From Oscillospiraceae bacterium (lineage in GTDB: Bacteria; Bacillota; Clostridia; Oscillospirales; Oscillospiraceae): 64,000 bases of DNA. Positions 7,676 through 61,265 of this stretch are shown one piece after another; the first letter of the stretch is position 1; each line of letters begins with the position of its first letter. The notes below the pieces were generated by a model that saw only the letters and a program-made list of their open reading frames with translations, was not told the DNA's origin and made no database searches. Location: NCBI GenBank assembly GCA_017469795.1, contig JAFUFT010000049.1:1-64000 (forward strand), read 5' to 3'. A program made the translations under genes and the position numbers.

Positions 7676-8896
7676 TCAGGTACGGTAATCCCCGTTGATC
7701 TTCACATAGTCATAGGTCAGGTCACAGCCCCAGGCCGTGACGGAGTGCTCGCCCTCATTGACGTTGACGCGGATCTCCACCTCGCTCTGGGTCAGGATCT
7801 TCTTGGCCAGTTCTTCGTCGAAGGCCAGCCCTTCTCCCGCCCGGCAGACCTGGATCTCCCCGGCGGCGGAGGCAAAGGACACGTCCACGTACTCAGGGCG
7901 GAAGGGCGCCTTGGAATAGCCCATGGCGCACAGGACCCGGCCCCAGTTGGCGTCGGCGCCGAACATGGCCGCCTTCACCAGGGAGGATTTAATGACCTCC
8001 ATCGCCAGCTTCTCCGCCGCCTCGTCGCTGCGGGAACCGGACACCGTACAGGTCACCAGCTTGGTTGCGCCTTCGCCGTCTCCGGCGATCTTCTTGGCCA
8101 GCTCCGTGCAGACATACCGGAGGGCCTCCGCAAACACCTCGTAGTCCTCGCTCTTCCAGTCGATCACGGGATTTCCCGCCTGGGCGGAGGCCAGAATCAC
8201 GCAGGAATCATTGGTGGAGGTGTCGCCGTCCACGCTGACCCGGTTAAAGGTGATCTTCGTGATGTCGTAGAGGGCGCTCTGCAGCACGTCCGGCGTGATG
8301 GCGCAGTCCGTGGTCAGGAAGCAGAGCATCGTCCCCATATTGGGGTGGATCATGCCGGAGCCCTTGGCGATGCCGCCCAGCCGCACCTCCTTGCCGCCGA
8401 TCTCGAAGGAGACCGCGATCTCTTTGGGCACCGTATCCGTGGTCATAATGGCGTGGGCAGCCTCCATGGAGCCGTCCCGGCTCAGAAGCGACGAGAGCGT
8501 GGGACACGCCGCCTCGATGGCGGCCACATTCAGCGGAACGCCGATGACGCCGGTAGAGGCCACGATGAAGTCCTCCGGCCGGAGGCCTGTGGCCGATGCG
8601 GCAGCCTCGCACATCTTCACTGCGTTTTCGTGGCCCATGGGCGCGCAGGCGTTGGCGTTGCCGGAGTTGGCGATGATTCCGCGGGCGACGCCGTTCTCCA
8701 GATGCTCCATGGTCACATAGATGGGGGCCGCCTTTACCCGGTTCATGGTGTAGACGCCGGCAGCGGCCGCCTCCGTATCACAGAGGATCATGGCCAGATC
8801 GTTTTTGTCCGGGCTGCTGCCCGCCTTGACCCCGGCATGGACGCCGGAGGCCCGAAAACCCTTGGCGGCCGTCACGCCGCCGGAAATCAGTTTCAT
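7676..8896 (-). CDS. argJ: Glutamate N-acetyltransferase / ornithine acetyltransferase
   Basis: A 406-residue protein of the self-cleaving ArgJ family. It moves acetyl from N-acetylornithine to glutamate and so recycles it; bifunctional forms also use acetyl-CoA. The self-cleavage motif reads KGSGMIHPNMGTML, where the Thr after the cut is the nucleophile and Gly stands where most homologues have Ala. No argA or argE is seen nearby, so this enzyme probably supplies N-acetylglutamate as well. GGAGG precedes the ATG, and the gene follows the acyltransferase gene at once. Confidence 0.95.
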   Translation of the reverse strand: MKLISGGVTAAKGFRASGVHAGVKAGSSPDKNDLAMILCDTEAAAAGVYTMNRVKAAPIYVTMEHLENGVARGIIANSGNANACAPMGHENAVKMCEAAASATGLRPEDFIVASTGVIGVPLNVAAIEAACPTLSSLLSRDGSMEAAHAIMTTDTVPKEIAVSFEIGGKEVRLGGIAKGSGMIHPNMGTMLCFLTTDCAITPDVLQSALYDITKITFNRVSVDGDTSTNDSCVILASAQAGNPVIDWKSEDYEVFAEALRYVCTELAKKIAGDGEGATKLVTCTVSGSRSDEAAEKLAMEVIKSSLVKAAMFGADANWGRVLCAMGYSKAPFRPEYVDVSFASAAGEIQVCRAGEGLAFDEELAKKILTQSEVEIRVNVNEGEHSVTAWGCDLTYDYVKINGDYRT

Positions 8897-8897
8897 A

Positions 8898-10001
8898 TCA
8901 GGTTCCTCCCGTATGTCGATTCGCGTATTGCTTTTTGATATACCTGCCCAGGAAAATCAGTCCCATGCTGCCCGCCGCAGCCAGAAACAGCCGCGGCATG
9001 GAGAACAGGAAATACCGGGCCGTTCCGAAGGCTGGCCGGGCGCCCAGCAGAAGATCCCAGAGCCGGTTGTAATAGGTGATGATCGTTCGGTGCAGGGCCA
9101 GAATGGGGATCGTGCTCCGTCCCAGCTCCATAAACACCCCGGAGATCCGGGTTCCCTCCAGGAAGCGGCACAGCCGCAGCAGCACACAGGGTCCCATCAC
9201 GCCGCCCACAAAGTAGATCAGCGGTCCCCAATAACCGTGGGGCCCGTAGGCGCTCATAAGCATGGAGGTGGTCATGGCCTCGTTCCAGATGCCGATGGCC
9301 AGCACCGCGCCGGCCGCCGCCAGATACACAAGGGGCTCCAGCCACCTGTGCTTCCACTGCCGCTCCAACAGGTCCGCTTGCCGGATCCCCCAGCCCGCCG
9401 CCATCAGTGCCGCCGCCAGAAAGCAGTTGCTTAGATTCCAGGGCAGCCGGATGGGCAGCGTATTGAGCGCGATGGTGACCAGAATACAGGGCACGATCAT
9501 GACCTTCAGGGGGCATCCAAACCGACGCCGGATCAGCAGAAGCAGCAGGAACGCCGCCGAGGCGGTGACCATAGCCGTCAGGAACCACAGGGGATAATTG
9601 AACTGGGTAAAGTAGTTCAGCAGCGTCCCGCTCTGGTCATTCATGAAGATCTGTCCTTCGGAATACAGAACCCCAAAGATATGCCGCAGCAAGTCCAGGC
9701 AGGTCGCTCTGGTCCGGGGGATAAAGCCGGGCAGCAGATCGATGATATACAGCACCATCAGCGCCGCGTTGTAGCCGAAGTAGGGCCGCAGAAGCGGCTT
9801 CATCCGTTTTTTCAGCTGCGCGAGGTAGGGCTCGTCCTTATCCTTCCACAGGAACCCGGCCGTCAGGAAAAACAGCGGGATCAGCAGCACATAGCCCACC
9901 GTCCCCGTATAGGGCGCGCCGTCGGCGTGGACCGCGATGATCCAGATCATGGCGATGCCCTTGGCGATGTCCAGATAATCCTTGCGCTTTTTCTCAGCCA
10001 T
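8898..10001 (-). CDS. Acyltransferase 3 family membrane protein inside the arg operon
   Basis: A 367-residue multi-spanning protein of the acyltransferase-3 (OafA/WecH/YrhL) type. It begins RKDYLDIAKGIAMIWIIAVH, the usual start of these proteins with the conserved His in the first membrane segment, and has about ten hydrophobic segments ending in a basic tail. These proteins move acyl groups onto sugars, peptidoglycan or other exported molecules. It is packed between argC (29-base gap) and argJ (about 1 base), so it is surely co-transcribed, yet it has no known part in arginine synthesis. Its substrate is unknown. Confidence 0.85.
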   Translation of the reverse strand: MAEKKRKDYLDIAKGIAMIWIIAVHADGAPYTGTVGYVLLIPLFFLTAGFLWKDKDEPYLAQLKKRMKPLLRPYFGYNAALMVLYIIDLLPGFIPRTRATCLDLLRHIFGVLYSEGQIFMNDQSGTLLNYFTQFNYPLWFLTAMVTASAAFLLLLLIRRRFGCPLKVMIVPCILVTIALNTLPIRLPWNLSNCFLAAALMAAGWGIRQADLLERQWKHRWLEPLVYLAAAGAVLAIGIWNEAMTTSMLMSAYGPHGYWGPLIYFVGGVMGPCVLLRLCRFLEGTRISGVFMELGRSTIPILALHRTIITYYNRLWDLLLGARPAFGTARYFLFSMPRLFLAAAGSMGLIFLGRYIKKQYANRHTGGT

Positions 10002-10030
10002 CTAACTCACTCTCTTTCAGAGCGATTGTA

Positions 10031-10957
10031 TCACAGTCCGTAATTTTCGTCCACACCCATCATAATGTTCAGGTTCTGCACCGCCGCGCCGGAGGCGCCT
10101 TTTCCCAGATTGTCGAACCGGGATGAAACGATGGCCTGGGTCTCGTTGCCGGAGACAAAGATCTGCAGATCATTGGTCCCCACCACGTTGTTGCTGCCCA
10201 GGAAGCCGCTGTCGGGCGTGTCCATCACCCGGATGTTCCTCTGTCCGGCGTAAAAGTCCCGATAGGCCTGCCGCAGAGATTCCAGCGTCACGCTGCCGGG
10301 CAGCAGGTCCAAATGCAGCGGCACCGTCACAAGCATTCCCTGGGGGAAGTCACAGACGATGGGACAGAAGATGGGCTTTCTCGTCAGGCCGCAGACCTTC
10401 ATCATCTCCGGGATGTGCTTGTGACTGAGGGTCAGGCCGTAGTGCCGGGGGGAGACATATTCCGCATCCCGCTCCGGGGCCTCATACTGCTCGATCATCT
10501 TCTTTCCGCCGCCGGTATAGCCGGTGAGGGAGTGGACCGAGAGGGGATAATCCGGGGGCAGGATGCCCACCTTCACCAGCGGGTACACCAGGGAGATGAA
10601 TCCCGTGGCGTGACAGCCGGGATTGGCCACAAACTGCGCCGTTTCAATGGCTTTTCGGTGTTCCTCCGACAGCTCCGGGAAGCCATAGGCCCAGGCAGGA
10701 TCTGTCCGGTGGGCAGTGGAGGCGTCAATGACCCGGGTATGGCTGTTTTCCACCATGGCCGCCGCCTCCCGGGCCGCCGCGTCCGGCAGACACAGAAACA
10801 CAAAGTCCGCGGCGTTGATGGCATCCTTCCGGGCGGAGGGATCTTTTTTCAGCTCCTCCGGCAGAACGATCAGCTCTGTCTCCTGCCGCAGGGCCATACG
10901 GCTCTCGATCTGCAGACCCGTGGTGCCTGCCCGGCCGTCGATAAAGATCTTCGTCAT
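10031..10957 (-). CDS. argC: N-acetyl-gamma-glutamyl-phosphate reductase, type 2
   Basis: A 308-residue NADPH-dependent reductase acting on N-acetylglutamyl phosphate. It is the shorter type-2 ArgC: it opens KIFIDGRAGTTGLQIESRM, and the active-site Cys lies in VANPGCHATGFISL. SLTGYTGGGKKMIE is also conserved. It starts 3 bases from the end of argH, and the two are clearly co-transcribed. Type 2 occurs in some Clostridia and alphaproteobacteria and differs from the 345-residue type 1 of Bacillus. Confidence 0.95.
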   Translation of the reverse strand: MTKIFIDGRAGTTGLQIESRMALRQETELIVLPEELKKDPSARKDAINAADFVFLCLPDAAAREAAAMVENSHTRVIDASTAHRTDPAWAYGFPELSEEHRKAIETAQFVANPGCHATGFISLVYPLVKVGILPPDYPLSVHSLTGYTGGGKKMIEQYEAPERDAEYVSPRHYGLTLSHKHIPEMMKVCGLTRKPIFCPIVCDFPQGMLVTVPLHLDLLPGSVTLESLRQAYRDFYAGQRNIRVMDTPDSGFLGSNNVVGTNDLQIFVSGNETQAIVSSRFDNLGKGASGAAVQNLNIMMGVDENYGL

Positions 10958-13817: not shown

Positions 13818-14936
13818 TCACTGCAGCTCCCGGATCGCTTCCCGCAGCCCGGACAGGAATCCGTCCACATCCTGCGGACCTGTCTCGAAGCCAAGGCTCA
13901 CCCGGATGGCGCCGTCGATGACCGGCCCGGGAACCTCCATGGCCTCCATCACGTGGCTCCGGTGGCCCCGGGAGCAGGCGGACCCGGCGGACACATAGAT
14001 CTCCCGCTGCTCCAGCGCGCCGATCAGGCCCTGACTCCGGACGCCGGGCACCGCCAGGGAGATAATGTGCGGGGCGGCGTGGGCTCCGATCACCTCCACC
14101 CCCGGGATCTCCGCAAGTCCGGCAAGGCAGCTGTTCTTCAGTGCCTCCATTTGGCGGATCTTTTCCCGCCAGTCCTTCCTGCACGCCCCGCAGGCCGCGC
14201 CGAATCCCACGATCCCGGGCACATTTTCCGTTCCGGACCGCATGTTTTTCTCCTGTCCGCCTCCATAGAGAAGCGGCGGCAGATGGACACTGCCCGACAC
14301 GTACACTGCCCCGACGCCTTTTGGACCACCGATCTTGTGGCCGCTGACGGTGATCAGATCCGCCCCCAGAGAGGAGGCTCGGAAGGGCACCTTCAGGAAG
14401 CCCTGCACCGCGTCCGTGTGAAACACCGCCGAGGACCTCTGATGGACGAGCTTCGCCATACCCGCGATGTCGTTGACCGCGCCGGTCTCGTTGTTGACCA
14501 TCATCACCGATACCAGAATGGTGTCCGGCCGAAGGGCGGCGAGCACATCCTTTTTTGAGATCGACCCATCGGGCATGGGCTTCAGATACGTCACCTCAAA
14601 TCCCTGCTCCTCCAGCGCCCGTACCGGGTTCAGAACGCCGTGATGCTCCACGGCGGTGGTGATGATGTGGCGGCCGCGCTTGCCGTAGCGCCGGGCCACG
14701 GAGGATACGGCAAAATTGTCCCCCTCCGTGCCGCCGGAGGTGAAAAACACCCGTTCCGGCTCACAGCCCAGCGCCTCGGCCACCTGCCCTCTGGCAGCCT
14801 TTACCGCCTGCTCTGCCCGAAGGCCCAGTCCGTGGACTGCGGAGGGATTGCCCCAGTTTTCCGTCAGCGCCTGCGTCATAGCCGCCACAGCCTCCCGGCA
14901 GGGTTTTGTGGTGGCGGCGTTGTCCAGATAGATCAA
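13818..14936 (-). CDS. Cysteine desulfurase (NifS/IscS group)
   Basis: A 372-residue PLP enzyme that takes sulfur from cysteine for Fe-S clusters or tRNA thiolation. TTG 14936 gives the usual start MIYLDNAATTKP and has AGGAG 7 bases upstream; a GTG at 14945 sits too close to that site. The PLP Lys is in TVSGHKIGGPKG (about residue 201) and the sulfur-carrying Cys is in SAGSACSRG (about 321). It lies 17 bases after a HAD gene on the same strand. No iscU or thiI is adjacent, so the acceptor is unknown. Confidence 0.9.
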   Translation of the reverse strand: MIYLDNAATTKPCREAVAAMTQALTENWGNPSAVHGLGLRAEQAVKAARGQVAEALGCEPERVFFTSGGTEGDNFAVSSVARRYGKRGRHIITTAVEHHGVLNPVRALEEQGFEVTYLKPMPDGSISKKDVLAALRPDTILVSVMMVNNETGAVNDIAGMAKLVHQRSSAVFHTDAVQGFLKVPFRASSLGADLITVSGHKIGGPKGVGAVYVSGSVHLPPLLYGGGQEKNMRSGTENVPGIVGFGAACGACRKDWREKIRQMEALKNSCLAGLAEIPGVEVIGAHAAPHIISLAVPGVRSQGLIGALEQREIYVSAGSACSRGHRSHVMEAMEVPGPVIDGAIRVSLGFETGPQDVDGFLSGLREAIRELQ

Positions 14937-14953
14937 ATACAGCACTCCTACTC

Positions 14954-53683: not shown

Positions 53684-53774
53684 GTGATCGCCTCCCTCAC
53701 GGCTATTATACGGAAGCGGAGCGCCCCTGTCAAACCCGGCGGCAAAAGCCGTAGCCACTTGGCGCGGTTTGTGC

Positions 53775-53780
53775 TATAAT
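53775..53780 (+). promoter_or_regulatory. Extended -10 promoter of the macro-domain gene
   Basis: TATAAT with TGC just before it (TGCTATAAT). The -35 is poor (TAGCCA, 17 bases upstream), so the extended -10 is the main signal. Confidence 0.6.
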
Positions 53781-53801
53781 GCAGAAAAAGGAGGTGCCGC
53801 A

Positions 53802-54932
53802 ATGCCCTTTCAAATCGTGCGGAACGATATCACCCGAATGAACGTGGACGCCATCGTCAACGCAGCCAACAGCTCCCTGCTGGGGGGCGGCGGCGTGGAT
53901 GGGGCCATCCATCGGGCGGCGGGTCCCGGTCTGCTGGAGGAATGCCGTACCCTCCGCGGATGTCCTCCCGGTCACGCAAAAATCACCGGGGGATACGACC
54001 TGCCTGCGAAATATGTGATCCACACCGTGGGCCCCATCTGGCAGGGAGGCGGCAGCGGCGAAGCGGAGCTGCTGGCCGACTGTTATCGAAACGCCCTGTC
54101 TCTGGCGGCGGAATATGGCCTGGAAAGCGTAGCCTTCCCGCTGATCTCTGCCGGGGCCTATGGGTATCCGAAGGCAGAGGCACTGGAGATCGCCGTGCGA
54201 TCCATGGAGACCTTCCTCCGGGATCACGAGATGGAGATCTATCTGGTGGTATTTGACAAGGCCAGCTTCCGGCTCAGCCGGGAGCGGATGCAGGACATCC
54301 GGGAATATATCGACCAGCGCTATGTGGATGAGCATCCTGCGGACCGGTCCAATCGGAACATCTGGTCAGAGATGCGCTTCGGCGGGGTCCCTTCCGCCGC
54401 CCATGCCCCACAGGCCCCACAGGCTCCGCAGGCACACCAGGAGCCCCAGACCGCATCCGGGCGCAAATCTTCCAAAAAGTCCGGCTTTTCCCTGCCCTTC
54501 GGCGGGCGAAAAGAGAAGAGGGAAGAGGATGAGATCTGCGATTCCGCCCTGCCGGAGAATGCGGATCTGGAAGCTCTGCTGTCACAGGTCGACGAGAGCT
54601 TTTCCCAGATGCTGCTCCGGAAAATCGATGAGTCCGGCATGACCGACGCCCAGTGCTACAAAAAGGCCAACATCGACCGGAAGCTCTTCTCCAAGATCCG
54701 GGGAGACGTCAACTACCGGCCCAGCAAACCCACCGCCATTGCCTTCGCCATCGCCCTGGAGCTGAGCCTGCCGGAGACCCGGGACCTGCTGTCAAAAGCG
54801 GGGTTTGCCCTGTCCCACAGCAGTAAGTTCGACATTATCATCGAGTATTTCATCCAGCGCCGGAACTTCAATATCTTTGAGATCAATGAGGCCCTCTTTG
54901 CCTTTGACCAGAGCCTGCTGGGGGCCGGATAA
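53802..54932 (+). CDS. Macro-domain protein with C-terminal extension
   Basis: 376 residues. The N-terminal macro domain (about 1-165) shows [32 protein letters not shown], and [16 protein letters not shown], the full ADP-ribose pocket. Then comes a Pro/Gln/Ala linker ([10 protein letters not shown]) and a C-terminal all-helical domain (about 260-376: [25 protein letters not shown]) that looks like a helix-turn-helix protein of the XRE type. It could remove or bind ADP-ribose and DNA. ATG 53802 has AAGGAGG. It precedes a vWA gene by a hairpin. Confidence 0.85.
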
Positions 54933-57900: not shown

Positions 57901-58080
57901 CCAACCTGCCTCCAATTCCTATCATTCTTCTATGATTAACAACTCTGTTCTGTCAATTTACCCTCGAATATAGTATATATCAACAATTATTATTTGTAAA
58001 TAGGACTGCAGATTGTTTCTCTTTTTCAGGATTTCCCGGTACAATGGAATCAGGAATTTATAAAACAGGAGGAGTACATT
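57901..58080. promoter_or_regulatory. Divergent intergenic region, LysR control region
   Basis: AT-rich and lacking a gene. The minus strand has TTGACA (57956-57951) for lysR. The plus strand shows TACAAT at 58042-58047 with no good -35, as expected of an activator-dependent promoter. Imperfect dyads (TATAGTATATATC, ATTTGTAAAT) could be LysR sites, but none is a clear T-N11-A box. Confidence 0.4.
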
Positions 58081-59628
58081 ATGATTCATCTTGGCAAAGA
58101 CGTAACGCTGAACATCTGTCCCATTCTTGTGACGTTGCACCACGACTATGTTTTTGAAGGCCCCTGCCGCATGGGCAAGGACTTTGAGCTCACCAAGGAG
58201 TTCGACGACATGGCCAACGCCCAGCTCATCAAGGACGCCCACGAGGAGATCGCAGAGAACCTGACGAATCCCCACTTCCATGTGACGGAGCCCATCTGGA
58301 TCGACCGGAACGAGGAATTTCTGGTGACCCCCGGCATCCTCGACACCATGCTCCAGGGCAAGGACGACGTGGACATCTATCTGGTGGGACCCATGGGCCG
58401 GCTCTCGGATCTGATCATCGACTTCGCGCAGAAGGCCAAAAAGCCCGTCATCACCATTCCCGGCCCCCAGTGTATGCAGACCATCCTCATCGCCTCCATG
58501 CGTTCCCGGGGCCTTGAGAGCTACGCCTACCGGACCTGGAAGGAGACCGTGGACTTCCTGGAGGTCCTCCGAGTGGCGAAAATGCTCCGGCAGACCCGGG
58601 TGCTCTGCGCGGCCCGGTTCGGTACCGCCCGCTCCGTCAGCGACATGGGCAACTTCGTGAATCTGGAGCAGGTGACAGATGTACTCGGCACCCAGTTCAC
58701 CTTTGTGAACCTCCATGAGCTGCTGGACCAGACCCACATTGGGGACTCCGGCAAGAACTATACCCTCCCTGGCCGGGCCGCCCTGAACCCCACCGAGGAG
58801 GACGTTCAGGAGATGGAGGCTCTGGCCGACGATCTGATCGGAAACGCCGTGGAGTGCGACATGGAACGCAAAGAGGTCCTGAACTCTGAGCGATTCTACG
58901 TCACCGTCAAGAAGATGCTGGACTACTATGGCTGCAACGCCTTCGCGGCCCCCTGCCCGGACGCCTGCGCCACCCGGCGTCTCAATGAGGAGCGCATGAC
59001 CTTCTGCCTGACCCATTCCCTGCTGGGCGAGATGGGCGTACCCTCCGCCTGCGAGTACGACATCCCCGCCTGCCTGTCCATCGCCATCCTCTCCTGCATG
59101 GCCGACAAGCCCGCCTACATGGGCAACACCACCCATGACGCCAAGGCCATTGCCACCGGCCGCTACGGTCTGTCCCCCTTCTTCCACACGGACATCAACG
59201 ACAAGTGCCTGGACGTGGTGAAGGCGGATCCTGACAACGTGGTGCTGACCTGGCACGCGGTGCCCCGCCGGAACATGCAGGGCTGGGACGCCCCTAAGGC
59301 GCCCTACGCCATCCGTCCCTTCGCCGCCAGCGGCTTCGGCGTGACGCTCCGCTACGACTGGAACCGGGACGTGGGCCAGACCATCACCATGGCCCGGATC
59401 TCTCCGGACTGCAGGACTCTGTTTGTGGCGAAGGGCGAGATCGTCGGCGGCGTGGGCTTCGGCGACTACTCCTGCTCTGAGGGCGTGTTCTTCCGGGTGG
59501 CCGACGGCAACGATTTCTTCCAGAAGCAGCTGGAGGTGGGCAACCATGTACCGCTGGTCTACGGCGACTGCTTTGACCAGATCTGCGCCCTGGGCCGTCA
59601 TCTTGGCCTGAAGGTCATCACAGCCTGA
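58081..59628 (+). CDS. L-fucose/L-arabinose isomerase-like protein
   Basis: 515 residues, in the FucI/AraA-like fold. The Glu of the metal site is in SACEYDIPACLSIAIL, the Asp in GNTTHDAKAIATG and the His in GNHVPLVYGD; the three metal ligands of sugar isomerases therefore seem kept. Overall similarity to true FucI is low, and no fucose pathway genes lie nearby. GGAGGAG precedes the ATG. Its stop overlaps the start of the desulfurase fusion (TGATG), so both act together. The substrate may be a sulfur or amino-linked compound, but this is open. Confidence 0.75.
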   Translation: MIHLGKDVTLNICPILVTLHHDYVFEGPCRMGKDFELTKEFDDMANAQLIKDAHEEIAENLTNPHFHVTEPIWIDRNEEFLVTPGILDTMLQGKDDVDIYLVGPMGRLSDLIIDFAQKAKKPVITIPGPQCMQTILIASMRSRGLESYAYRTWKETVDFLEVLRVAKMLRQTRVLCAARFGTARSVSDMGNFVNLEQVTDVLGTQFTFVNLHELLDQTHIGDSGKNYTLPGRAALNPTEEDVQEMEALADDLIGNAVECDMERKEVLNSERFYVTVKKMLDYYGCNAFAAPCPDACATRRLNEERMTFCLTHSLLGEMGVPSACEYDIPACLSIAILSCMADKPAYMGNTTHDAKAIATGRYGLSPFFHTDINDKCLDVVKADPDNVVLTWHAVPRRNMQGWDAPKAPYAIRPFAASGFGVTLRYDWNRDVGQTITMARISPDCRTLFVAKGEIVGGVGFGDYSCSEGVFFRVADGNDFFQKQLEVGNHVPLVYGDCFDQICALGRHLGLKVITA

Positions 59629-61265
59629 TGGAGACCCGGGAGAAGATCATCGCCCGCATCGCCCGAGCCAATGAAACCATCACCCGGTACGCGCCCGCGT
59701 ACCGGGCTTTGGAGCGTCGGGACTTCGATTCCGTCTATCCCCTGGTGTTCGGCTATATCCGGGACCGGTTTCTCCTGACCCGGGATATGTGCCGGAGCGA
59801 AGACCTGCTGGATCTGGCAGATGCGAGTCTGCGGCAGCTGCTGGAACTCAAGCGCCGGGGCATTGACGCCGGAGAAATCGCCCGGTCCTGTTCCGGCGCC
59901 TCCTCGGTGATCGCCAAAAAGGTGCTGCTGATGAAGGCGGTCCAGGATGTGTTTTCCGTGTCCATGACCCCGCAGGAATTCGCTGACATCGCCACGGTGT
60001 CGGATCTGGCCCGGTTTCTCTGTGCCGGCGGCGGGAACGCCGTGCCGGAGACGGAGGCGCCCTCCGGTTCCGGCCTCACGGATGGCTTCGACCCGGAGCG
60101 CGTGCGCGGGGACTTCCCCGCCCTGTCCGAGACAATCTACGGTCACCCCCTTGTTTATCTGGACAACGCCGCCACGGCCCAGTGTCCCCGGACGGTGCTG
60201 GAGGCCGTCCAAAGGATCGAGTCCTGCCGGGGCAACGTCCACCGGGGGATCCACACCCTGTCAGACCACTGTACCGAGGTCTTTGAGCAGGCCAGGCGCA
60301 CCTGCGCCGCCTTCCTCGGCGCCCAGCCGGGGCGCCTCACCTTCACCTCCGGTGCCACCGACGGCATCAACCGGGTGGCGGCGGCCATGGCGGGACAGCC
60401 CGGCGGCATTGTGGTCACCGCTCTGGAGCACCACTCCAATTTTGTGCCCTGGCAGCAGCTGTGCCTGCGGGAGGGCCGGCCCTTCCGGGTCTGCCCGGTC
60501 CTGGCGGACGGCTTGCTGGATCTCAACGCGCTGGACCGGATGCTGGACGGGGACATCTCCCTGCTGGCCATCACCGGATGCTCCAACGTTCTTGGGACCG
60601 TTCCGCCGTTGGAGAAGATCATTCCCCTGGCCCACAGCCGGGGCGTCAGGGTGCTGGTGGACGGTGCCCAGTCCGTCTGCCATATAGACATTGACGTGGA
60701 GGCGATGGACTGCGATTTCTTCGCCTGTTCCGGCCACAAGCTGGGCGGCCCCTTCGGCATCGGCCTGCTCTACTGCAGGGAGCCCATTCCGCCCGCAGTT
60801 TTCGGCGGCGGGATGGTGGAAACCGTCACCCAAAGCCACACCGATTTTCTCCCCACTCTGGAGGCCGGAACACCCAATGTCTCCGGCGCGGCGGGACTGG
60901 CCGCCGCCATCGAATACCGGTCTGCCCTCCCCCGGGGCTGGCAGGCCCATGAGGCCGCCCTGCTCCGTAGGGCGGAGACGCTCCTTTCGGAGCTGCCCGG
61001 AGTCCGCATTCTCGGGTCAGGGCCCAGGACCGGCTGTCTCTCCCTGGCGCTGGAGGGTCCCTCTGTGTTGGAGGCCGCCGCTCTAATGGACCAGACGGGC
61101 ATCGCCCTCCGTTCCGGCAATCACTGCGCCCAGCCCCTCCACGCCGCCATGGGAACGCCTTTTTCCCTGCGGATCTCCCCGGCGTTCTACAACACCTTTG
61201 GGGAAATCGAAGCCCTCTGCGCGGGACTGCGGCAGATCCTTTCCGGCCGCATCGCCGGCCTCTGA
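59628..61265 (+). CDS. Cysteine desulfurase (SufS group) with an ACP-like N-terminal region
   Basis: 545 residues. From about 155 on it is a group-II cysteine desulfurase: LVYLDNAATAQCPRTVLEAV, PLP Lys371 in CSGHKLGGPFGIG and sulfur-carrying Cys500 in SGNHCAQPLHAAMG. The first 150 residues are extra. Residues about 84-132 read like the second half of an acyl carrier protein (GASSVIAKKVLLMKAVQDVF, then TVSDLARFL), with Ser92/Ser93 where phosphopantetheine would attach. A Gly/Pro linker follows. No suf genes are adjacent. It overlaps the isomerase-like gene by one base. Role unknown. Confidence 0.8.
   Translation: METREKIIARIARANETITRYAPAYRALERRDFDSVYPLVFGYIRDRFLLTRDMCRSEDLLDLADASLRQLLELKRRGIDAGEIARSCSGASSVIAKKVLLMKAVQDVFSVSMTPQEFADIATVSDLARFLCAGGGNAVPETEAPSGSGLTDGFDPERVRGDFPALSETIYGHPLVYLDNAATAQCPRTVLEAVQRIESCRGNVHRGIHTLSDHCTEVFEQARRTCAAFLGAQPGRLTFTSGATDGINRVAAAMAGQPGGIVVTALEHHSNFVPWQQLCLREGRPFRVCPVLADGLLDLNALDRMLDGDISLLAITGCSNVLGTVPPLEKIIPLAHSRGVRVLVDGAQSVCHIDIDVEAMDCDFFACSGHKLGGPFGIGLLYCREPIPPAVFGGGMVETVTQSHTDFLPTLEAGTPNVSGAAGLAAAIEYRSALPRGWQAHEAALLRRAETLLSELPGVRILGSGPRTGCLSLALEGPSVLEAAALMDQTGIALRSGNHCAQPLHAAMGTPFSLRISPAFYNTFGEIEALCAGLRQILSGRIAGL

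Follow-up and report, generated by a model that had tools for sequence, protein, structure and literature searches.

The two coupled genes under study form part of a conserved four-part module, in which a protein with the fold of the L-fucose and L-arabinose isomerases (gene A) is accompanied by an ACP-like protein, a SufE and a SufS-type cysteine desulfurase. In the window, i.e., the whole stretch of 64,000 nucleotides of an Oscillospiraceae bacterium that was analysed, the ACP-like domain and the desulfurase are joined in one protein (gene B). We tentatively propose that the module acts as a dedicated relay, which would carry sulfur from SufS, by way of SufE where this is present, to a cysteine of the ACP-like domain and from there to a sulfur centre in gene A, itself possibly an inducible catabolic enzyme.

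Organization of the Locus

Both open reading frames lie exactly where the preliminary description had placed them (58081-59628 and 59628-61265; Table 1), and the stop codon of gene A overlaps the start codon of gene B by a single base (TGATG, 59626-59630). The genes had also been described as lying under a LysR gene. Such a gene does indeed adjoin them but, since it is on the minus strand, it is divergent and not upstream in an operon. The spacer of 165 bases between the LysR gene and gene A contains a block with the pattern TATATA..AACAA...TTTGTAAATA...TTGTTTCTCTT, in which AACAA and TTGTT are in inverted orientation. The block has invariant columns and is nearly unchanged over five genomes, whereas the flanking spacer has diverged. 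Downstream of it a -10-like TAnAATG occurs at approximately 58040-58046. Judged from the sequence, the block and this motif may represent an operator and a promoter, and a LysR-controlled divergent promoter would be the natural reading of the spacer. LysR-type regulators are also recurrent elsewhere, i.e., in 32 of the loci clustered.

Table 1. Features of the locus (positions are those of the window).
Feature	Position	Strand	Basis
LysR-type regulator, 298 aa	57019..57915	-	PF00126 E 9.5e-24, PF03466 E 4.4e-25
Conserved block between LysR gene and gene A, putatively regulatory	57974..58023	.	Five-genome alignment
Gene A, predicted L-fucose/L-arabinose isomerase fold, 515 aa	58081..59628	+	AF2 model, fold search, 68-row alignment
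Gene B, ACP-like helical domain (residues 1-135)	59628..60032	+	Stand-alone homologues, profile matches, hhalign
Gene B, linker (residues 136-149 with pLDDT <50)	60033..60086	+	pLDDT
Gene B, SufS-type (type II) cysteine desulfurase domain	60087..61265	+	PF00266 E 4e-97, Foldseek, alignment

The earlier statement that no Suf genes lie nearby is correct for this locus: sufBCD are not encoded with gene B, and a housekeeping sufCBDSU-like cluster (gene names assigned by inspection of the translations) is located on a separate contig, C1, of the same genome. This genome also possesses a second, unfused copy of the module on contig C18, where the isomerase-fold protein, the ACP-like protein, SufS and SufE are separate genes accompanied by a divergent LysR gene. 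The SufE of this copy (PF02657, 107 bits against a cut-off of 27) is the only one in the genome, and the sulfur-acceptor cysteine of SufE, C51, is invariant in 42 sequences.

Gene A: an Isomerase-Fold Protein

Gene A alone has no Pfam match, and Fucose_iso_C is detectable in 25 of 68 of its relatives. The AlphaFold model (pLDDT 92.9, pTM 0.93) matches, along its full length, the isomerases of L-arabinose and L-fucose (Foldseek E 1e-18), with a VIA Z of 28 and an rmsd of ~3 A over ~430 residues at 10-13% identity, and settles the predicted fold as that of the three-domain FucI/AraA proteins. Comparison with canonical isomerases of neighbouring genomes places the metal site at E325, N349 and H489. 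The ligands E325 and H489 are kept, but the canonical Asp is replaced by Asn (N349) in 66 of the 68 relatives, and the Glu/Asp/His triad of FucI (E337, D361 and H528, with Asp361 at the position of N349) is incomplete.

In the 68-row alignment, C29, C285, C292, C296, C309, C324, C465, H21, H312 and H392 are invariant or nearly so. C29, C285, C465, H21 and H312 are specific to the gene-A family when compared with two canonical isomerases, and C292 occurs in one of these two. The seven cysteines do not represent a family-specific cluster as a whole, since C296, C309 and C324 are common to canonical isomerases. No obvious CxxC-type Fe-S motif was seen in gene A.

Two assignments of gene A to a known enzyme were considered and rejected. 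Against the sulfoquinovose isomerase model it scores 26.2 bits, far below the cut-off of 700. Dihydrophloroglucinol cyclohydrolase, an idea derived from the list of hosts, belongs to the ‘cyclase’ / isatin hydrolase family (PMC10470551), a family other than that of a protein with the FucI fold. A plasmid search with gene A as the query gave no match.

Gene B: an ACP-Like Domain Fused to SufS

Gene B (545 amino acids, 59628-61265, plus strand) carries an extra helical domain, residues 1-135, N-terminal to its desulfurase. Nearly all of the best matches of this domain to PDB profiles are ACPs (best E 0.0026), and hhalign aligns it with E. coli AcpP (E 6e-5; GASS with GADS); it is the C-terminal half of the domain that shows this resemblance. 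Cys88 and Lys97 are invariant in the 70 sequences counted, while Ser93, at the position of the phosphopantetheine serine, is a Ser in 59 and T, A, D or G in the other 11. A reading as an ordinary phosphopantetheine ACP was set aside, because PF00550 scores 17.2 bits, under its gathering score of 20.8, and because this serine is not invariant.

The remainder of gene B (residues ~154-541) is Aminotran_5/SufS-like, with 43% identity to E. coli SufS (Foldseek E 5e-41), and keeps the catalytic residues H268, K371 (the PLP lysine) and C500 (the persulfide cysteine), the latter in the short RxGxxCAxP loop typical of type II desulfurases. At 375.7 bits it falls below the TIGR01979 subfamily cut-off of 475, whereas the C18 paralogue, at 515.6 bits, is above it. 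The beta-hairpin of SufS contacts SufE (PMC10011822), and the beta-hairpin region of the window SufS is three residues shorter than that of the C18 paralogue. In the fused SufS of a related locus, L039, this region is not shortened. Loss of the beta-latch proline in fused SufS is not claimed, since the gap placement is ambiguous. Fold, profiles and linkage (see below) bear out the original picture, in which a protein of the sugar-isomerase fold is coupled to an enzyme that releases sulfur and has an additional domain at its N terminus.

A different role for this domain should be considered here, i.e., that of a regulator or true phosphopantetheine carrier which tunes SufS for the general Fe-S assembly of flavo- and molybdoenzymes in the neighbourhood, gene A being a separate isomerase of the same regulon. 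In E. coli, ACP binds to IscS and stimulates it (PMC13343975), an observation that also speaks for the relay proposed below; Ser93 is present in most sequences, and many of the Eggerthellaceae copies of the module have Fe-S- and Mo-dependent enzymes nearby. However, it is Cys88 and Lys97 that are invariant, and not the serine; the number of ACP-like copies tracks that of gene A (see below), and gene A has invariant cysteines specific to its family. This role, therefore, seems unlikely to us.

Linkage and Distribution of the Module

A scan of bacterial genomes yielded 77 loci, and profile annotation of these revealed the four-part set throughout the annotated loci. Since the extra domain of gene B is mostly a separate protein (~140 amino acids in most genomes), the usual layout comprises an isomerase-fold protein, an ACP-like protein, SufE and SufS. 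The ACP-like protein lies within 2.5 kb of gene A for 83 of 91 gene-A relatives, and SufE and SufS lie within 5 kb for 64 and 58 of them, respectively; many of the remaining gene-A loci among the 91 end at contig ends. The coupling of gene A to its partners is thus not peculiar to the window but holds in most genomes. Across the order, gene A was found in six of 395 genomes and the ACP-like protein in five, all five being shared (p 8e-11, a statistic that, like those given below for copy number and SufE, ignores shared ancestry). The module occurs in both Bacillota and Actinomycetota, its gene order varying, and one Spirochaetes locus (L091) also has the pair of gene A and ACP-like protein. 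That the two genes are neighbours by accident might be argued from the few genomes that possess gene A alone but, with such linkage and co-occurrence across two phyla and a pair even in the Spirochaetes, it is strongly disfavoured.

Genomes with more copies of gene A also have more copies of the ACP-like protein (Spearman 0.84 over 22 genomes, up to six each), whereas the same 22 genomes contain one to three SufE genes. This is the pattern to be predicted for gene-A proteins that each possess a separate ACP-like partner but draw on a common sulfur source, and the module seems to be organized in this way. SufE was present in all 22 tested genomes with gene A and an unfused ACP-like protein and in none of the 23 tested genomes without the ACP-like protein.

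Gene A does occur without an ACP-like protein or SufE, i.e., in three Spirochaetaceae genomes (L037, L060, and L061) and in a distant relative, G359. In a further Spirochaetaceae genome, L059, it lacks the ACP-like protein and only a distant SufE match is present. Gaps in MAGs could be behind some of these cases. In G359 gene A abuts a desulfurase of the NifS/IscS type, which is an independent pairing of gene A with a desulfurase. Gene A keeps all its cysteines in genomes without the ACP-like protein and SufE and, therefore, the relay is not obligate in these few genomes, which argues for a role in maturation or recharging and not for sulfur as an obligatory co-substrate.

Fusions and the Absence of SufE

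Fusions exist in every pairing, i.e., ACP-SufS, ACP-SufE and SufS-SufE, while gene A is never fused. The ACP-SufS fusion of the window type occurs in the clade of the window, which includes three loci (L033, L034, and L039) and two congeneric relatives with gene A. None of the five genomes holding only this type of fusion possesses SufE (p 1e-5). Because type II desulfurases need a transpersulfurase partner to pass their persulfide on (PMC10011822) and SufE is absent, a direct transfer of the sulfur to the fused domain is the simplest explanation, and this fits a fusion that bypasses SufE. However, fusion as such does not always replace SufE: two other loci (L074 and L075) contain a second, independent ACP-SufS fusion and keep SufE.

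Genomic Neighbourhood, Hosts, and Substrate Class

The recurrent neighbours of the module are regulators (LysR and PucR-type) and importers (SSS and DASS; others were recognized by eye), next to OYE, FMN and FAD reductases and an amidohydrolase. Three loci of Lachnospiraceae/Clostridia have neighbours of a flavonoid type (two phloretin-hydrolase-like proteins and one chalcone isomerase), and molybdoenzymes resembling catechol dehydroxylases flank many of the Eggerthellaceae copies. The hosts include gut and rumen anaerobes known for polyphenol metabolism, namely Eubacterium ramulus, E. oxidoreducens, Gordonibacter, Ellagibacter, and Raoultibacter. This suggests that the module serves an inducible anaerobic catabolism of polyphenol-like compounds, although the loci concerned are few and the association is statistically unestablished. 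A link at the level of whole genomes to proteins of the phloretin-hydrolase type was rejected, since their enrichment (five of nine genomes vs. seven of 31) is not significant (p 0.07).

Making or breaking a sulfur-containing sugar, one of the two roles initially suggested, finds no support in these neighbourhoods. No sugar gene is recurrent in those that were read, where the recurrent genes are for regulation, transport and flavin oxidoreductases, together with a few for flavonoid degradation and, in Eggerthellaceae, for molybdoenzymes, and the low score of gene A against the sulfoquinovose isomerase model points the same way. The other suggested role, mobilising sulfur for a cofactor, comes close to the best-supported reading, the persulfide relay to gene A.

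The sulfur could also be a substrate, with gene A as a thiolating isomerase that introduces sulfur from SufS into a sugar- or polyol-like metabolite and the ACP-like protein as the sulfur carrier. Alpha-hydroxy-carbonyl compounds are the substrates of the isomerase fold, delivery to such a fold by a sulfur carrier would be in keeping with this, and gene A does show a weak similarity to the sulfoquinovose isomerase model. Nevertheless, we consider it rather unlikely: up to six pairs of gene A and ACP-like protein in a genome share the one to three SufE genes, the neighbours look catabolic and include importers but nothing that is clearly biosynthetic or meant for export, and a few lineages retain gene A although they lack the relay.

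Other neighbours hint at selenium or molybdenum-cofactor metabolism, which the module would serve by delivery of selenide or of a sulfido ligand. The module of Ellagibacter and that of a close relative adjoin selA, selB, yedF, selD and formate dehydrogenase (identified by eye), and a selD relative occurs in L052 and L055. Again by eye, moaA, mobB and moaC lie ahead of one copy (L107), and one copy in E. ramulus is followed by molybdate ABC genes. A SelD match is, however, limited to two loci and most loci lack such a gene. Furthermore, this proximity is weak evidence because Eggerthellaceae are rich in molybdoenzymes, and we regard this role as very unlikely.

Proposed Mechanism and Implications

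In the relay that we tentatively favour, SufS would draw sulfur from cysteine and carry it as a persulfide on its own catalytic Cys, and SufE, or a direct hand-over within the fused protein of the window, would move it to Cys88 of the ACP-like domain. This domain would then dock on its own gene-A protein and deliver the sulfur there, where it may build or recharge a centre, of the persulfide or Fe-S type, among the invariant cysteines beside the metal site. The matured enzyme would then act on a polyhydroxylated compound, either cyclic or aromatic, as a step of an inducible catabolic pathway in gut anaerobes. We infer the direction of the relay, the sulfur acceptor, the nature of the centre and the class of substrate from the conserved residues, the gene content and the neighbourhoods described above.

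The module thus points to an enzyme family that needs delivered sulfur, probably for the breakdown of plant-derived compounds. As a unit, this family is absent from Pfam, and genomes contain up to six copies of it. If the relay is real, it would open a way into anaerobic transformations that still lack an explanation, and would be an example from nature of a gene fusion that takes the place of a transpersulfurase. More speculatively, and with rather little expectation on our part, gene A could be the founder of a class of enzymes in which the sugar-isomerase fold has become sulfur-dependent, served by an ACP-derived cysteine carrier. Gut anaerobes would use them to open, isomerise or dehydroxylate rings of the polyphenol type, and the sulfur would take part in catalysis itself and not in a standard Fe-S cluster.

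Comparison with Known Systems

Gene A shares its whole-chain fold and the Glu/His ligands with the L-fucose/L-arabinose isomerase superfamily (FucI, AraA, and COG2407-type proteins). It differs from FucI and AraA in its low identity, the Asn in place of Asp, the family-specific Cys and His residues, the partners of a sulfur relay and the lack of sugar genes nearby. The curated family model nearest to gene A is that of the sulfoquinovose isomerase SftI (NF048012), although it gives 26-41 bits against 700 and no sulfoquinovose pathway genes were seen near gene A.

The desulfurase and transpersulfurase belong to the same families as those of SufS-SufE and CsdA-CsdE, with the catalytic residues kept. 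Unlike these systems, the module lies outside the suf operon and serves ACP-like and isomerase-fold proteins, and the window departs further from SufS-SufE, since its SufS carries the ACP-like domain as a fusion and genomes that have this form alone lack SufE. The cargo cysteine desulfurase of Family 2A encapsulins (NF041166) is, like gene B, a SufS-type protein with an N-terminal extension, but gene B scores 377.7 bits against a cut-off of 800 and the match covers the SufS part only.

ACP-IscS of E. coli and the eukaryotic NFS1-ISD11-ACP complex likewise combine a protein of the ACP fold with a cysteine desulfurase. The ACP-like protein of the module is distinct from those ACPs in its invariant cysteine, its extra N-terminal helices and the non-invariant phosphopantetheine serine; it is, moreover, sometimes fused to SufS or SufE and tracks an isomerase-fold enzyme. 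A literature search, sparse in subscription journals and preprints, returned nothing on this combination of genes. Dedicated desulfurase relays are known systems, but no description was found there of one that reaches a target of the sugar-isomerase fold by way of an ACP-like cysteine carrier.

Variants of the module and its gene surroundings

At one module locus (L035), gene A, the L-fucose/L-arabinose isomerase fold protein, is followed by a truncated ACP-like gene from which the SufS part is missing. This gene is a copy, in decay, of the window-type fusion of an ACP-like domain with a SufS-type cysteine desulfurase (gene B), and another contig of the same genome carries an intact ACP-like protein and SufE. 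A distant relative of gene A (L112, genome G359), in which the metal-ligand glutamate (E325 in the window's gene A) is replaced by alanine, adjoins a NifS/IscS-type desulfurase, with neither an ACP-like protein nor SufE present. The window itself holds a further desulfurase-like gene, the product of which shares 31% identity with the SufS domain of gene B.

Features of module variants and neighbouring genes
Feature	Location	Strand	Basis or context
Truncated ACP-like gene, 89 aa	L035:11550-11819		behind gene A
Distant gene-A relative and adjoining NifS/IscS-type desulfurase	L112 (G359:C5) 7773-8906, 9107-10549	-	
Class V aminotransferase/cysteine-desulfurase-like gene	window 13818-14945	-	sequence comparison with gene B
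Leucine-rich-repeat-variant/HEAT-type protein	L049:12652-14139; L106:3908-5392		Coriobacteria modules
Macro-domain and sirtuin-like genes	L010:5506-7318; also L048, L049, L051, L056		
Macro-domain protein, long C-terminal extension	window 53769-54932		PF01661, E 2e-47

In some Coriobacteria, a leucine-rich-repeat-variant/HEAT-type protein separates the SufS gene from the ACP-like or SufE gene. In Ellagibacter and a relative (L052 and L055), the module lies, as judged by eye, amid apparent selenium genes (selB, selA, yedF, and selD) and a formate dehydrogenase gene that carries an in-frame break. The second, unfused module of the window's genome (contig C18, L010) is adjoined by a macro-domain gene (PF01661) and then by a sirtuin-like gene, so named by eye from a motif, relatives of which repeatedly occur close to modules in Lachnospiraceae and Coriobacteria. 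The window's own macro-domain protein is encoded 4 kb upstream of genes A and B.
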